A DNA stretch of 64,000 bases, from assembly GCF_001647085.1 (NCBI RefSeq), contig NZ_CP015520.1, positions 186,001-250,000 of the forward strand, given 5' to 3'. The position numbers and the translations under genes are program-made. Below the pieces are notes generated by a model, which did no database searches, had not been told where the DNA came from, and saw only the letters and a list, made by a program, of their open reading frames with translations. The DNA is from Thermococcus piezophilus (GTDB lineage: Archaea; Methanobacteriota_B; Thermococci; Thermococcales; Thermococcaceae). Positions 42,561 to 47,551 of the stretch are shown piece after piece; position 1 is the first letter of the stretch, and each line of letters starts with the position of its first letter.

Positions 42561-42813
42561 GTTCTGGTTCCCGTTCTACCGCTCGTGGCAGTTCTCGCTG
42601 ATTCCGAAGGAGCGGGCCAGCGAGTTCCACGCGGCGATATCGAGCTACAACAGGCTGATTGGCCTCGTCACGCCATTCAGTGCCGGCGCACTGGCGAGCG
42701 TACATGCGACGCTTCCTTACGCGGCGAGCTTGGGGCTGTTCCTCTTAGCTGGGGTACTTTTCGTTAGAGGGGAAGCCTTTAGAAAGGCGAAGGTAAGAAG
42801 CAGCCCCCAGTGA
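42560..42813 (+). pseudogene. MFS transporter C-terminal fragment
   Basis: FWFPFYRSWQFSLIPKERAS, EFHAAISSYNRLIGLVTPFS and two membrane helices (PFSAGALASVHATLPYAASL; LGLFLLAGVLFVRGEAF) read as the last quarter of a major-facilitator protein. There is no start, and the upstream side is the opposite-strand gene at 42190. A deletion or inversion joined the two. The stop at 42811-42813 is followed directly by the HAD-phosphatase remnant. Confidence 0.65.
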
Positions 42814-42824
42814 GGAGATGGAAA

Positions 42825-43406
42825 ATGAAGAAGGTCGCGGTAATAGACATCGAGGGAACTTTAACAGACTTCGAGTTCTGGAGGGAGATGGCCAGAATAA
42901 CCGAAAAACGGGAGATAAAGGAGCTTCTTGAAAAGGGCCTCTCCGGAGAGGTGGAGTGGCTGGATTCCCCCTCAAACGGGTGGGGCTCATAAGAGGTATC
43001 GACGAGGGACGTTCCTCAGACGAGGGAGAAGGTAAACGTGAGTCCTGAGGCGAGAGAGCTCGTTGAAACGCTCAAGGAGAAGGGCTTTAAGGTGGTTCTC
43101 ATCAGCGGTTCCTTTGAGGAGGTTCTTGAGTCCTTTAAGGAACTCGGAGATGAGTTCATGGCCAATCGGGCAATCTTTGAGGATGGGAAGTTCCAGGGAA
43201 TAAGGCTAAGATTCCGGGATAAAGTGGAGTTCCTCAAAAGATTCAGGGATGGGTTTATCCTCGCTATGGGAGATGGTTACGCGGACGCCAAGATGTTCGA
43301 GAGGGCTGACATGGGGATAGCCGTCGGCAGGGAGATACCCGGGGCGGATCTTCTGGTAAAAGACCTGAAAGAGCTGGTGGATTTCATAAAGAATCTAAAG
43401 CCTTAG
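42825..43406 (+). pseudogene. HAD phosphatase (SerB-like), two frameshifts
   Basis: MKKVAVIDIEGTLTDFEFWR gives HAD motif I with D-x-E instead of the usual D-x-D. Between 42965 and 43015 two single-base shifts hide LKRVGLIRGIDEGRF; after them the frame runs SPEARELVETLKEKGFKVVL, ISGSFEEVLESFKELG (motif II) and ILAMGDGYADAKMFERADMG (motif IV). The end is KELVDFIKNLKP. An intact relative with the same D-x-E variant is at 54842. Confidence 0.8.
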
Positions 43407-44145
43407 TTCTCAGCCGCCAGCCATCAATGTCAAAACTGCCCATTCTATCGAAGACGTGAGTTATCACTTCCTCCAAGTTTTTGGCCTCGCGCCTCTCAAG
43501 AGCCTTCAGAAACAGCTTCACGAACTCCCCATCGGGAAACTCTTCAAATATATATGCTTTTCTGAACCCCTCGTCGCTGAAGAGCCTGTAAACTTTGCTC
43601 GCTGGAGGAATTTCAACACCCCAGAACTTCGAATAAACCTCAAGGGCTCTTCCGAGAGCCAGGTGGTAGAGGTAGCCAGAGCTGGGATCGTTCCTGTCTT
43701 CAGCGTCCTTCATACTGTCGAGCATGTCCCAGAGGGAGTACTTAGCTACTTCCATCCAGGTCTCGTCGGGCCGTTCAAAGGGTCTCTTCATGTATTCCAG
43801 CGCTTCCGCTTTGAGAACCTCGGCTATTCCAGTCCTGTCAAAGAGCACTTTCCCACTTACTATAATCCTCGCTGTGGCCCGGCTGTTCTGGGCAAACTCC
43901 TTCTCAAAGTAGTGCCTGATCTGCCTCGCTGGATTTGCGAAGTACTCGATTAAAGTCCCATTTATAACGACGTTTCCCCTCTCCCTCCATTCCACGTCAT
44001 CGGAGAGCACGATGTAAACGTCTACATCGGAGTATCTGGTCTGTAGCCCAACTGCATAGCTTCCAGTTAGCAGAGCGGCCTCAACGAAGTCCTTCTCCTT
44101 CCAGGGTTCAGGGAACTTTCTGAGGGCAGAGTCCTAGCTCTGCAC
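43384..44145 (-). pseudogene. nucleotidyltransferase-domain protein, premature stop
   Basis: Residues after the N-terminus show the pol-beta nucleotidyltransferase motif LLTGSYAVGLQTRYSDVDVY (G-S-x10-D-x-D), followed by a ~180-residue helical region (RIIVSGKVLFDRTG; LYHLALGRALEVYSKFWGV). The only plausible start is GTG 44145 (MQS), but a TAG at 44134-44136 follows three codons later; a single base change from a sense codon would restore SALRKFPEPWKEKDFVEAAL. It directly follows the MFS exporter gene. The 3' end overlaps the HAD remnant by 23 nt. Confidence 0.7.
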
Positions 44146-44146
44146 T

Positions 44147-45381
44147 TTAGCACCCCTTAAGCGTTTGTTTTAGACGTTTTCCACATGGTGAAAAATCGGC
44201 ATACATTGCCCCAAGCAATAAAAACACAGGAAGCATGATAGCAAAGCTCCCCTCGATTCCAAGAGCGTTCACGATATTTCCAATCAGGGCATAGAGAGCC
44301 ACACCAACAGAAGCAGAGATGCTCATCCGCGTAGAGAGAATAGTGCTCCGGTACTCACTCGGTATGACTTCGTTGATAAGCAGGGTGTAAGTCGTGAAAT
44401 AAATTGCCTCTCCTAATGAGTAAATAGACAGTGCTATCACCCCAATAGCCACTGCTGAGGCTCCAGCAAATAAAGCATACGAGAGGAACATTCCGCCTAT
44501 TGACACTAGGGACAACCGAAAGTAATTCCTATCCGTCCCTCTTTCAATTCTGACGGACTTAAGGAGTACAATCCCAGCCACAATTCCCATTATGGACTTT
44601 AGAGAGTACAATATTCCTAAAGTGTCCGTATCCATCCCAGCAGGACCCGTGAAGTACAGTTGCCAGGAGTAGATAAAATGAAGATGAACAATCGAGAAAA
44701 TTACATCTGTAAAAATCAGATAAAGGATCCGTTTGTCTTTCAATGACAATTTTACCCCTCTATGACTATGGCCAGCACGTTTTTCTTCTTGTCTCCCCAG
44801 TTCTCGGGGAGTAGCAACAAAGCTAATAAAGCTGCAAGAAGGTTCAAAACTGCAGCAGCATAAAACACACTCCTCATACCAAGATATGCAATTATCACAC
44901 TGTTCACCAGACCAATAACAAGAGAGCCCGCACTGTTAATGGACTTTAGAAGTCCAAAAGCGTTTTTGGCTTCTTCTCTCGCCATGTTTTGTTTCTCGAC
45001 TTCTGTGAAATACCAGGCCCGAAGGGTACCCGAGATTAGAGAGGAGCCTACGGCGGCCAAGGCATAAGCGAACACACAAAAGGCAAAACCCTTGGAAAGA
45101 CTGATTAAGAACATACTCACTCCGTAGAAAATCAAGCCAAGCACCAATGTTCTTCTCCTTCCGTATTTATCAGCAATCCCACCCGTGAAAATATCAGTAG
45201 CAAACATGACGAAAAGGTACAATGAATATAAGTATCCAACTTGCGAATAGCTAAGCTTAATGACATCTTTAAAATAAACCGTCAAAACAGGCGTTACAAT
45301 ATTCCTGCCGTAGAATATTGCAACACTAACCAGAATCATATTGAGAGATACTTTACTAAGCGAGACAAATGATTTAAAAAT
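44147..45381 (-). pseudogene. MFS exporter, single frameshift (RiPP-like cluster)
   Basis: Twelve membrane helices of a major-facilitator protein: MILVSVAIFYGRNIVTPVLT, the loop motif GGIADKYGRRRTLVLG, and the second half from ILYLIFTDVIFSIVHLHFIY to FAIMLPVFLLLGAMYADF. Between the halves, IVIEG meets TAA; one additional G in GAGGGGTAAAATTG would restore EGVKLSLKDKRIL. The 5' end has GGGGGTGAT but the expected codon is ATT (45381); the first ATG is at 45339. The gene follows the maturase by 12 nt and is AT-rich. It probably exported the cluster's product. Confidence 0.72.
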
Positions 45382-45392
45382 TAAATCACCCC

Positions 45393-46727
45393 CTATTTTT
45401 TGAGCAAACAATAAGAATATTCGGGACGTACTGGTGGAAAACTCCCAGATGCAAATGGGCATTTTGTCAAATCCCGCCTATTAAGGGCATTTCTCCAGAT
45501 AGTTTCAAGAGATTCTTTCCTGAGATCTCCAAGAAAAATATCCCAAACACTACTGCACTGGATTATTTTTCCATCATATCTAATCCTCAAATCCATTGTA
45601 CCAGTAGGACAGTTATCATAATTAAACTCTGGTGTTAGTGCTGGAGTGTATATAGATAGGAAAGACCTGTAATCTACGGTAATTTCCAGCTCATTGTTGG
45701 CCCTATTTATCGTGTTAAAGAACTGAACCAGCATATCCGAATTCAACATGGAAGGTCCTTTGTTGATGGCCCCTTTTCCAATAGGCAGATAATGAAGCAA
45801 TGTAACATGAGACACCCCCAATGAATCTAGAAAAGTCAAATGTTCCCACAGGATCTGAATATTAACTGTACTTATAACAGACTTAACATGAACATCAATA
45901 TTTTCTCTTTTAAGCAACTTAATGTTATGTATACTCCTCCTGAATATGTTTACAGCAACATCTTGAGGGACATTTAAATATTTTTGCATAGTCCACTGCA
46001 TTTCCATGAAGGCTTACTGCAATAGGCATGGGGGGCAAAAGTTTTAAAGCATTCAGTTGCCTGTGGACTAAATATCTGTTTGTTATGACAGTCGCATAGA
46101 GGCCATGGTCCCTTATAGTCCCAATGATATTATAAAGGTCTTTTCTAGTTAATGGCTCGCCACCCAGCAATACAAAATAAAAGACTCCAAGGTCACTCGC
46201 CTGATTTATGACATCTTTAATCTCCTCAAACGTCATTTCGTTCCCAATATGTTTATCCCCATGCGCATAACAAAAATTACAGGAAAAATTGCATTTTTTA
46301 GTTATCTCCCATATCAATCTTATTGGGGCACTAAGGGGGGACATGCCCTTATGGTAAATGTTAGGGTTTCCAATCTTCGGATACTCTTTTGTTTGCGCTT
46401 TCAACATTTTTAGATTAATGTTAACTTGGTATTTTCCATATTCACCTAGCGCCGCCTTAATTGAATCGAGAAAAGAATCCAATTCTTTTCTGGATATCCC
46501 GGCTTTATTCAGAGCATTCACGACAGTAAGATACTCCAAATTTCTTGCTTTTTTATAGACCACGGAAATCTGTTGGGCAGCGCTAGTCCTTTATCTGCCA
46601 CAAGAAGTGGTGCTCTCAATCTAGGAAGAAAAATTAATCCCCCATATCTTTCTTTTCGTATAAGCATTCCTTCTAGATATGTTATAAATCTATCATTCGA
46701 TAAAGAAATAAGAGAAGAGGGTTTCAT
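45393..46727 (-). pseudogene. radical SAM/SPASM peptide maturase with N-terminal RRE-like domain, frameshifted
   Basis: From ATG 46727 (after GAGGTGA) the first ~55 residues include RKERYGGLIFLPRLRAPLLV, the beta-hairpin start of a PqqD-like recognition element. A shift near 46565 continues into KARNLEYLTVVNALNKAGIS, the helical part. The radical SAM core follows: LIWEITKKCNFSCNFCYAHG (CxxxCxxC), then FYFVLLGGEPLTRKDLYNII. A second shift near 45985 continues YLNVPQDVAVNIFRRSIHNI. The C-terminus has a SPASM-type cysteine set (CPTGTMDLRIRYDGKIIQC, later CPF and YSYC). Total ~445 residues. Such enzymes modify ribosomal peptides; here the upstream small gene is the likely substrate. Confidence 0.75.
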
Positions 46728-46742
46728 GGGAAAACTCACCTC

Positions 46743-46877
46743 TCAATTCTCAATCTTAACCTGCGGGAGCTGTACAAAGATCCTCGAATCTTCATAGTGG
46801 TGTGCACACGCCCCAACCTTAACGGCTTTCTCTAGAACCCCCACTACATATTGGGAGTTATCATTCTTCCTCTTCAT
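46743..46877 (-). CDS. candidate RiPP precursor peptide (44 aa)
   Basis: A short gene reading MKRKNDNSQYVVGVLEKAVK, VGACAHHYEDSRIFVQLP and QVKIEN, ending 15 nt before the maturase start. GGGGAT lies five bases before the ATG, and a TATA box with an overlapping palindrome lies upstream. The first half is basic and helical, as leader peptides often are; the second half carries the single Cys, two His and several modifiable residues. Size, position and promoter fit a precursor peptide for the radical SAM enzyme. No known precursor family is recognised, so this remains a proposal. Confidence 0.5.
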   Translation of the reverse strand: MKRKNDNSQYVVGVLEKAVKVGACAHHYEDSRIFVQLPQVKIEN

Positions 46878-46902
46878 CGTAAATCCCCAATCTTCAAGAA
46901 TA

Positions 46903-46929
46903 ACTTAAAGTGTTTAAGTTTATAATTTT
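46903..46929 (-). promoter_or_regulatory. promoter and palindromic operator of the RiPP-like cluster
   Basis: On the minus strand AAAATTATAAAC (46918-46929) is a TATA box. Directly downstream is a perfect inverted repeat, ACTTAAA-CAC-TTTAAGT (46903-46919), lying between TATA and the expected start near 46895. A repressor bound there would block polymerase. No regulator gene is adjacent. Confidence 0.55.
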
Positions 46930-46987
46930 CTTAACCTCCCCTGTTTTAAACCTATAGTTTTAGACGTAAAGTGTTACAATTTGCAGT

Positions 46988-47551
46988 TCAAAACTCCGGA
47001 ATCCTTATCGGCGCCTGAAGTTCCTTCTCCGAGCTTTCGAGGTTTGTGGCGAGCATCTTTATCCTTTCAACACCCTTGATTTCCTTTATGAACTCGGCAA
47101 CGCTCTTCGGCACGAGCTCCTCCCAGGGTTCTCCTTCCACCATACGCTTCCTTATTTCGGTTGCAGAGAGGATGTCCTTCCTGAACATGGGTTGTACTAT
47201 GACCTCGTATCCCCGCTCACGGAAGAGCTGAGCGACAAGAGAGTTTCCAGTGAAGACAACATCAAATCTTGGAACCATGCTCTGGACGTAGGTTGACCAG
47301 ATGGCGTTGAAGTTGATGTCTGGTAGCGGAATCAGGTAGTAGCGCTTCTCCAGACCCGCCTCGTCCAGAGCCCTTATGAGCATCTCCATCCTTTCGCTCG
47401 TCATGAAGGGATTCTTGAGCGTGTGGCTGGCCTGGGCGCTGCCGATGCCTATTATTACCTCGTCCACCTGCGAGAAAACAAACTCAAGGGCCTTTATGTG
47501 CCCGTTGTGAACCGGCTGGAAACGGCCGACGAACAGACCGCGCTTCGGCAT
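46988..47551 (-). CDS. nadM: nicotinamide-nucleotide adenylyltransferase
   Basis: A 187-residue protein of the archaeal NadM type. It has the nucleotidyltransferase HxGH motif (GRFQPVHNGHIKALEF), the IGSAQASHTLKNPFMTSER segment and the second motif ILSATEIRKRM (I-S-x-T-x-x-R). It joins ATP and NMN to give NAD. The start ATG 47551 follows GAGGTGAT; a GTG three codons earlier lies in that site. It follows the SAM hydrolase gene by 12 nt. Confidence 0.96.
   Translation of the reverse strand: MPKRGLFVGRFQPVHNGHIKALEFVFSQVDEVIIGIGSAQASHTLKNPFMTSERMEMLIRALDEAGLEKRYYLIPLPDINFNAIWSTYVQSMVPRFDVVFTGNSLVAQLFRERGYEVIVQPMFRKDILSATEIRKRMVEGEPWEELVPKSVAEFIKEIKGVERIKMLATNLESSEKELQAPIRIPEF

Follow-up and report, generated by a model that had tools for sequence, protein, structure and literature searches.

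A probable radical-SAM RiPP cassette with an MFS transporter at the NMNAT locus of Thermococcus piezophilus and its relatives

Does the AT-rich segment next to NMNAT, a housekeeping gene, of Thermococcus piezophilus encode an undescribed modified peptide, as a first-pass annotation had proposed, and is the system intact? The window, which is the whole stretch of 64,000 nucleotides that was analysed, contains on its minus strand, in order, the NMNAT gene, a 44-codon ORF, a radical SAM gene, an MFS gene, and a nucleotidyltransferase gene. The unit between the NMNAT and nucleotidyltransferase genes is about 2.9 kb and AT-rich. Its GC content is 0.36-0.44, versus 0.50-0.58 in the flanks, which bears out the earlier remark on raised A+T content. 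Pfam matches in the window unit were Radical_SAM (E 3.6e-16), SPASM (E 6.9e-6), and MFS_1 (E 2.2e-24). The unit is probably a radical-SAM RiPP cassette that combines peptide modification with MFS export and/or immunity. The features of the unit and its neighbours are as follows.

47560-46988, minus strand: NMNAT gene.
46918..46930, minus strand: promoter element resembling TATA/BRE, GAAAATTATAAAC, some 40-50 nt ahead of the peptide start.
46904..46918, no strand: short palindrome CTTAAAGTGTTTAAG, present in the window sequence.
46743..46877, minus strand: gene for the 44-aa precursor-like peptide MKRKNDNSQYVVGVLEKAVKVGACAHHYEDSRIFVQLPQVKIEN (homologues, invariant positions, pN below pS).
45393..46727, minus strand: maturase gene with an RRE-like N-terminus, a radical SAM core, and a Twitch-like C-terminus; two frame shifts here.
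46727-46584, 46542-45982, and 45980-45396, minus strand: frame pieces of the maturase gene.
46584..46727, minus strand: portion of the N-terminal, RRE-like domain that precedes the first shift (106-aa model of an intact homologue).
44147..45339, minus strand: MFS transporter gene in two frame pieces (one shift); start set by comparison with relatives.
From about 44130 (44134) to 43384, minus strand: nucleotidyltransferase gene.
44117..46990, no strand: full extent of the inserted segment, set by BLAST comparison of its flanks with genomes G040, G038, and G026, where the site is empty.

The peptide has homologues in three genomes besides the window genome (G000). A search of 94 Thermococcaceae genomes retrieved them from G018, G061, and G048 with E values of 3e-12 to 2e-11. 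They are 45 aa long and 57-63% identical to the window peptide in that search, with 55-57% identity given for the family. When 115 genomes of the phylum were searched with a profile, only these four had convincing matches. The family is defined by an alignment of four sequences, of which two hardly differ, and 22 of its 45 positions are invariant, nearly all between Y10 and E43. The invariant core is YVVG.L.K..KVGAC.H..ED...F.QLPQ. The alignment has invariant Glu and Asp residues and one invariant Cys, Cys24. Between G018 and G048, pN was 0.08 and pS was 0.71, which indicates purifying selection. The 44-residue ORF, which had been taken for a gene in the first-pass annotation, is borne out by these homologues and by the selection on them.

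The peptide matched nothing in Pfam and none of the known precursor families. This would fit a small accessory protein, such as a leader peptide or an attenuator, with the enzyme acting elsewhere. We regard that as very improbable. Conservation extends over the C-terminal half and concerns the residues themselves as well as the length, and the closest architectures to the maturase (SkfB, SuiB, and CteB) all belong to peptide maturases. The ORF is treated below as a candidate precursor.

Of the 115 genomes, four carry both the peptide and a close maturase; all four are Thermococcus, and neither gene is found in the other 111. The other maturase matches listed were at most 35% identical. The maturases of G018, G061, and G048 are intact, contain 443 aa, and are 64-65% identical overall to the window pieces; functional relatives had been expected elsewhere, and these three fit. 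A small ORF was sought upstream of the homologous maturases and is present before every intact close homologue. The gap between the peptide and maturase genes is 12-13 nt in G018, G061, and G048, where it contains a Shine-Dalgarno sequence. The 15-nt gap reported for the window is correct if the maturase ATG is at 46727, as in the relatives. Phylum-wide profile searches retrieved no further peptide or close maturase. A scan of 84,980 genomes for wider spread retrieved only two Thermococcus sp. MAGs, both already among the relatives, and no maturase was retrieved from viruses in IMG/VR.

An AT-rich element like GAAAATTATAAAC lies at the matching place in G018, G061, and G048 and in the alleles that have only the MFS gene (compared by eye, with no significance test). 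The proposed TATA box thus keeps its position. The palindrome CTTAAAGTGTTTAAG has no clear counterpart in the relatives, and so no function is inferred for it. The proposed ribosome-binding site is weak in the window and strong in G018 and G061 (GGAGGTGAT). The genomes show that the predicted peptide and RRE-radical SAM-Twitch genes stand behind one promoter-like element and are always paired, with the MFS gene after them.

The maturase contains the radical SAM motif CxxxCxxC (Cys 144/148/151), and an intact homologue matched Pfam Radical_SAM with an E value of 2.6e-19, in line with the first reading of this motif. That reading had also claimed a PqqD-like N-terminus. The model of the N-terminal 106 residues of an intact homologue (pLDDT 84) has a beta-beta-beta-alpha-alpha-alpha (beta3-alpha3) topology, which is that of PqqD and the RRE. 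Its seven best matches in the PDB were chains of CteB, TbiB1, McbBCD, and TigE, all from RiPP biosynthesis, with a best E value of 0.23 and no match individually significant. SuiB and another lasso RRE appeared further down the ranking. The full-length model has low confidence (pLDDT 55); whole-protein structural matches were SuiB (E 1.4e-8), SkfB (2.5e-6), and PqqE (7.2e-6). Sequence methods miss the domain. Pfam gave no match to the N-terminal 73 residues of the window maturase, and its PqqD profile did not match the maturase N-terminus. An hhalign comparison with Thermococci RRE domains gave a probability of 1.4%, and a PDB sequence search returned spurious repeat-protein matches only. The RRE assignment rests on fold and ranking for that reason. 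From its topology, the PDB ranking, and the full-length SuiB and SkfB matches, the N-terminus models as a RiPP-recognition fold. The PqqD likeness therefore stands for the fold and for the company of mostly RiPP-recognition proteins in the top ranks, but not for PqqD sequence profiles.

The C-terminus differs from the earlier description. A SPASM domain had been proposed, and Pfam SPASM does cover 46-49 of its 67 positions in the maturases. The intact homologues have only three conserved C-terminal Cys (Cys372, Cys390, and Cys422), and the seven-Cys SPASM motif CX9-15GX4C-CX2CX5CX3C-C is absent. SPASM was rejected on this count. The Twitch domain of SkfB, BtrN, and MoaA is a truncated SPASM with Cys before and after a hairpin and after helix alpha2', and the three Cys here match this pattern, with the spacing seen in SkfB. 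By this pattern the maturase is a predicted Twitch enzyme and not a SPASM enzyme. Its auxiliary cluster would have at most three conserved Cys ligands, so that one site is open, we infer for the substrate.

The maturase approached none of the NCBIfam equivalog cut-offs and reached none of those for sactipeptides or ranthipeptides. It also scores with the PqqE and mycofactocin MftC profiles. These scores and the PqqE structural match would suit a peptide from which a redox cofactor or a catalytic prosthetic group is built, like PQQ or mycofactocin, with the enzyme beginning the conversion; so would the invariant Glu and Asp of the peptide. However, the unit contains no further cofactor-biosynthesis genes, a membrane transporter is next to the maturase, and the patchy, mobile distribution is unusual for a cofactor. 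A cofactor scaffold is accordingly judged highly unlikely.

Among described systems, the sporulation killing factor of Bacillus subtilis, the sactipeptide made by SkfB from SkfA, has the same domain order, with an N-terminal RRE, a radical SAM core, and a C-terminal Twitch domain. In both systems a small precursor is paired with one maturase. The Twitch-domain Cys of SkfB are Cys333, Cys351, and Cys385/387 (PMC6231123). The first two are 18 residues apart, as are Cys372 and Cys390 here, and the next follows after a further 32-34 residues. The maturase here has three C-terminal Cys rather than five and has no CxC. It scores 49 bits with the SkfB family TIGR04403, for which the cut-off is 300. 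The precursor, unlike SkfA, has one conserved Cys and belongs to no known family, and the nearest transporter here is of the MFS type. SuiB, CteB, and ChlB are RRE-radical SAM peptide maturases and gave the best structural matches; they share the RRE and the radical SAM core with this enzyme. SuiB and CteB carry a SPASM domain with two auxiliary clusters (PMC6231123), whereas one Twitch site is found here, and the precursors are unrelated. The StsB-type sactipeptide maturases (NF045574) gave 85-92 bits, among the best full-length NCBIfam scores, and the cut-off of 625 excludes membership. By analogy, the system may work like SkfB- or SuiB-type RiPP systems while lying outside the named equivalogs that were checked.

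The RRE-like domain of the maturase would bind the leader, probably at YVVGVL, which resembles a beta strand. The core around KVGAC.H..ED...F.QLPQ would then be modified by the radical SAM cluster together with the Twitch cluster and its open site. With one conserved Cys, each peptide can carry at most one Cys-derived crosslink. The modification would most likely be a single thioether that links Cys24 to a carbon close by, in the backbone or in a side chain, to which we give somewhat under an even chance. A C-C crosslink that involves F34 or another aromatic residue would be an outside chance, and epimerisation a slimmer one. These three grades are our judgement and were not computed. A host protease would remove the leader. 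The unit has no protease gene of its own. The MFS protein may pump out the product, protect the cell from it, or both.

The MFS gene follows the peptide and maturase genes in all four unit-bearing genomes, and its homologue in G018 is intact with 388 aa. It had been placed 12 nt after the maturase. It does follow, but the start conserved in relatives is 53 nt past the maturase stop. The earlier label of exporter needs amending: the MFS gene also occurs without peptide and maturase, in G025, G055, and G057, behind a similar promoter region. Its product is therefore more than an exporter dedicated to this peptide and may serve another substrate. In G018, the MFS gene is followed by genes for two ABC permeases and an ATPase. 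They were considered as unit members and rejected, because they adjoin the nucleotidyltransferase or NMNAT gene in genomes without peptide, maturase, and MFS, and they are absent from the window.

The MFS gene, with the ABC genes, may instead be an older, unrelated efflux locus. The genes for peptide and maturase would then merely have inserted behind the promoter of that locus, and the modified peptide would remain intracellular, perhaps with a regulatory role. The three genomes with the MFS gene but no peptide and maturase, and two (G043 and G022) with ABC genes but no MFS gene, can be read in this way. An MFS protein that acts as an immunity pump would lead one to expect exporter-only alleles just as much, and the MFS gene follows peptide and maturase in 4 of 4 genomes, including G000, which has no ABC genes. 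We consider the older efflux locus unlikely and prefer an MFS protein that serves the peptide.

In the window, two frame shifts in the maturase gene and one in the MFS gene, as described earlier, were confirmed. These shifts, three within about 2.7 kb, would suit a decaying pseudogene, as would an in-frame TAG close to where the adjacent nucleotidyltransferase gene (43384-44134) probably starts. The maturase pieces have no in-frame stop in 430 codons, however. Between window and relatives, dN is about 0.25 and dS is saturated; between G018 and G048, the nonsynonymous value is 0.08 and the synonymous value is 0.54. Split genes are also common in this assembly. When 400 kb of G000 was compared with 800 kb of G018, 12 of the 132 G018 genes with a close counterpart were split in G000 (about 9%), versus 2 of 132 in the reverse comparison, and several of the split genes span three frames. 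Given the lack of in-frame stops, the strong purifying selection, and this rate of split genes, the three shifts are most likely sequencing errors. The first-pass annotation had left the choice between inactivation and error, and error is the likelier of the two. A decaying pseudogene is improbable, and a genuine inactivation, if of very recent date, would be a lesser possibility. A HAD-type gene near the unit (window 42810-43406) is also broken by frameshifts. With about 9% of the tested genes in the first 400 kb of G000 split, readings that depend on frames elsewhere in this genome should be treated with caution.

The insertion site is defined by close relatives. In G040, G038, and G026, whose NMNAT proteins are 97-99.5% identical to that of the window, the NMNAT and nucleotidyltransferase genes adjoin directly and the site is empty. 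The left junction of the insert is the NMNAT stop codon, and the right junction (44094-44117) falls inside the nucleotidyltransferase gene, in its 5' end. Other genomes contain other forms. The order in G018 is NMNAT, peptide, maturase, MFS, two ABC permeases, ATPase, and a deleted nucleotidyltransferase. G061 and G048 contain NMNAT, peptide, maturase, and MFS as far as the contig end. G025, G055, and G057 contain NMNAT, MFS, and ABC genes, and G049 contains MFS and ABC genes on a short contig. In G043 and G022, NMNAT is followed by ABC genes.

These forms have sharp edges. In G055 and G057, the DNA on either side of the missing genes matches G048, promoter region and MFS start included. Between G025 and G018, identity rises to 98-99% exactly at the maturase stop codon. 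Over most of the maturase and MFS genes, G018 and G061 share 98-99% identity, and their flanks are 61-84% identical in most blocks and up to 89%. In a tree of the neighbouring genes, in which some inner nodes are weak, the four unit-bearing genomes are scattered, each beside genomes without the unit. Because of the high cassette identity against diverged flanks, the identity jumps at allele edges, and the scattered placement, the predicted cassette is taken to have moved recently and to pass horizontally between genomes at one fixed site, with homologous recombination as the probable route. It would thus move at the NMNAT locus in full, MFS-only, ABC-only, and empty forms. The N-terminus of the window nucleotidyltransferase (DSALRKFPEPWKEKDF) is unlike that in the nearest relatives (MEADWKLALEQFIEDWKIKDF) but similar to the G018 remnant, so that part of this gene probably arrived with the transferred segment. 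In G018, the nucleotidyltransferase gene beside the ABC genes (L040, 4503-4754) is internally deleted.

Other small ORFs were found beside radical SAM genes in further genomes. L060 (G037), L026 (G016), and L031 (G063) contain another conserved ORF of ~35 aa (..QFEEPQ.VPLESEET.W.LW.VWGK..) about 50 nt before an RRE-SPASM maturase of 463-466 aa. The G037 enzyme scores 171 bits with WgkB. This pair is a predicted second RiPP family in Thermococcus, of the WGK type. L014 (G046) contains a small ORF, MNDPKEIPQIVEEETEEWTFSDTQKGNEKWGSIL, 72 nt before a 472-aa maturase, which is 27% identical to that of the window and has a fuller set of C-terminal Cys. L021 (G093) and L024 (G080) contain tandem small ORFs with YxPPxGxDxG starts (MSYLPPVGGDVG... 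and MGEYIPPIGEDLG...) before radical SAM genes of 384-397 aa, which may represent a third family of precursors.

Genome mining predicts rSAM-modified RiPPs, including sactipeptides and ranthipeptides, across Euryarchaeota (PMC12144867). The experimentally verified archaeal RiPPs named there are haloarchaeal lanthipeptides, and Thermococcales are absent from its main text (PMC12144867). In the open-access literature searched, rSAM RiPPs of archaea appear as predictions only, and it contained nothing specific on Thermococcales RiPPs or on a peptide-maturase-MFS cassette.

The proposal of an undescribed modified peptide in Thermococcales is supported by both the conserved precursor-like ORF and the RRE-fold N-terminus. 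The full, MFS-only, ABC-only, and empty forms at the NMNAT locus are as expected of a competition peptide with a resistance gene. More tentatively, the cassette could represent an undescribed RiPP class of hyperthermophiles, with a single-Cys peptide and a three-Cys, open-site Twitch enzyme. Thermococcus would use the product as a competition peptide. Alleles of the full, exporter-only, and empty kinds would circulate by homologous recombination at one locus, and exporter-only strains would be immune non-producers. Some members of Thermococcus can be grown and genetically handled. The precursor-maturase pair, with its intact homologues, would make radical-SAM peptide chemistry testable in hyperthermophiles. 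The natural full, exporter-only, and empty alleles are candidate producer, immune, and sensitive strains.
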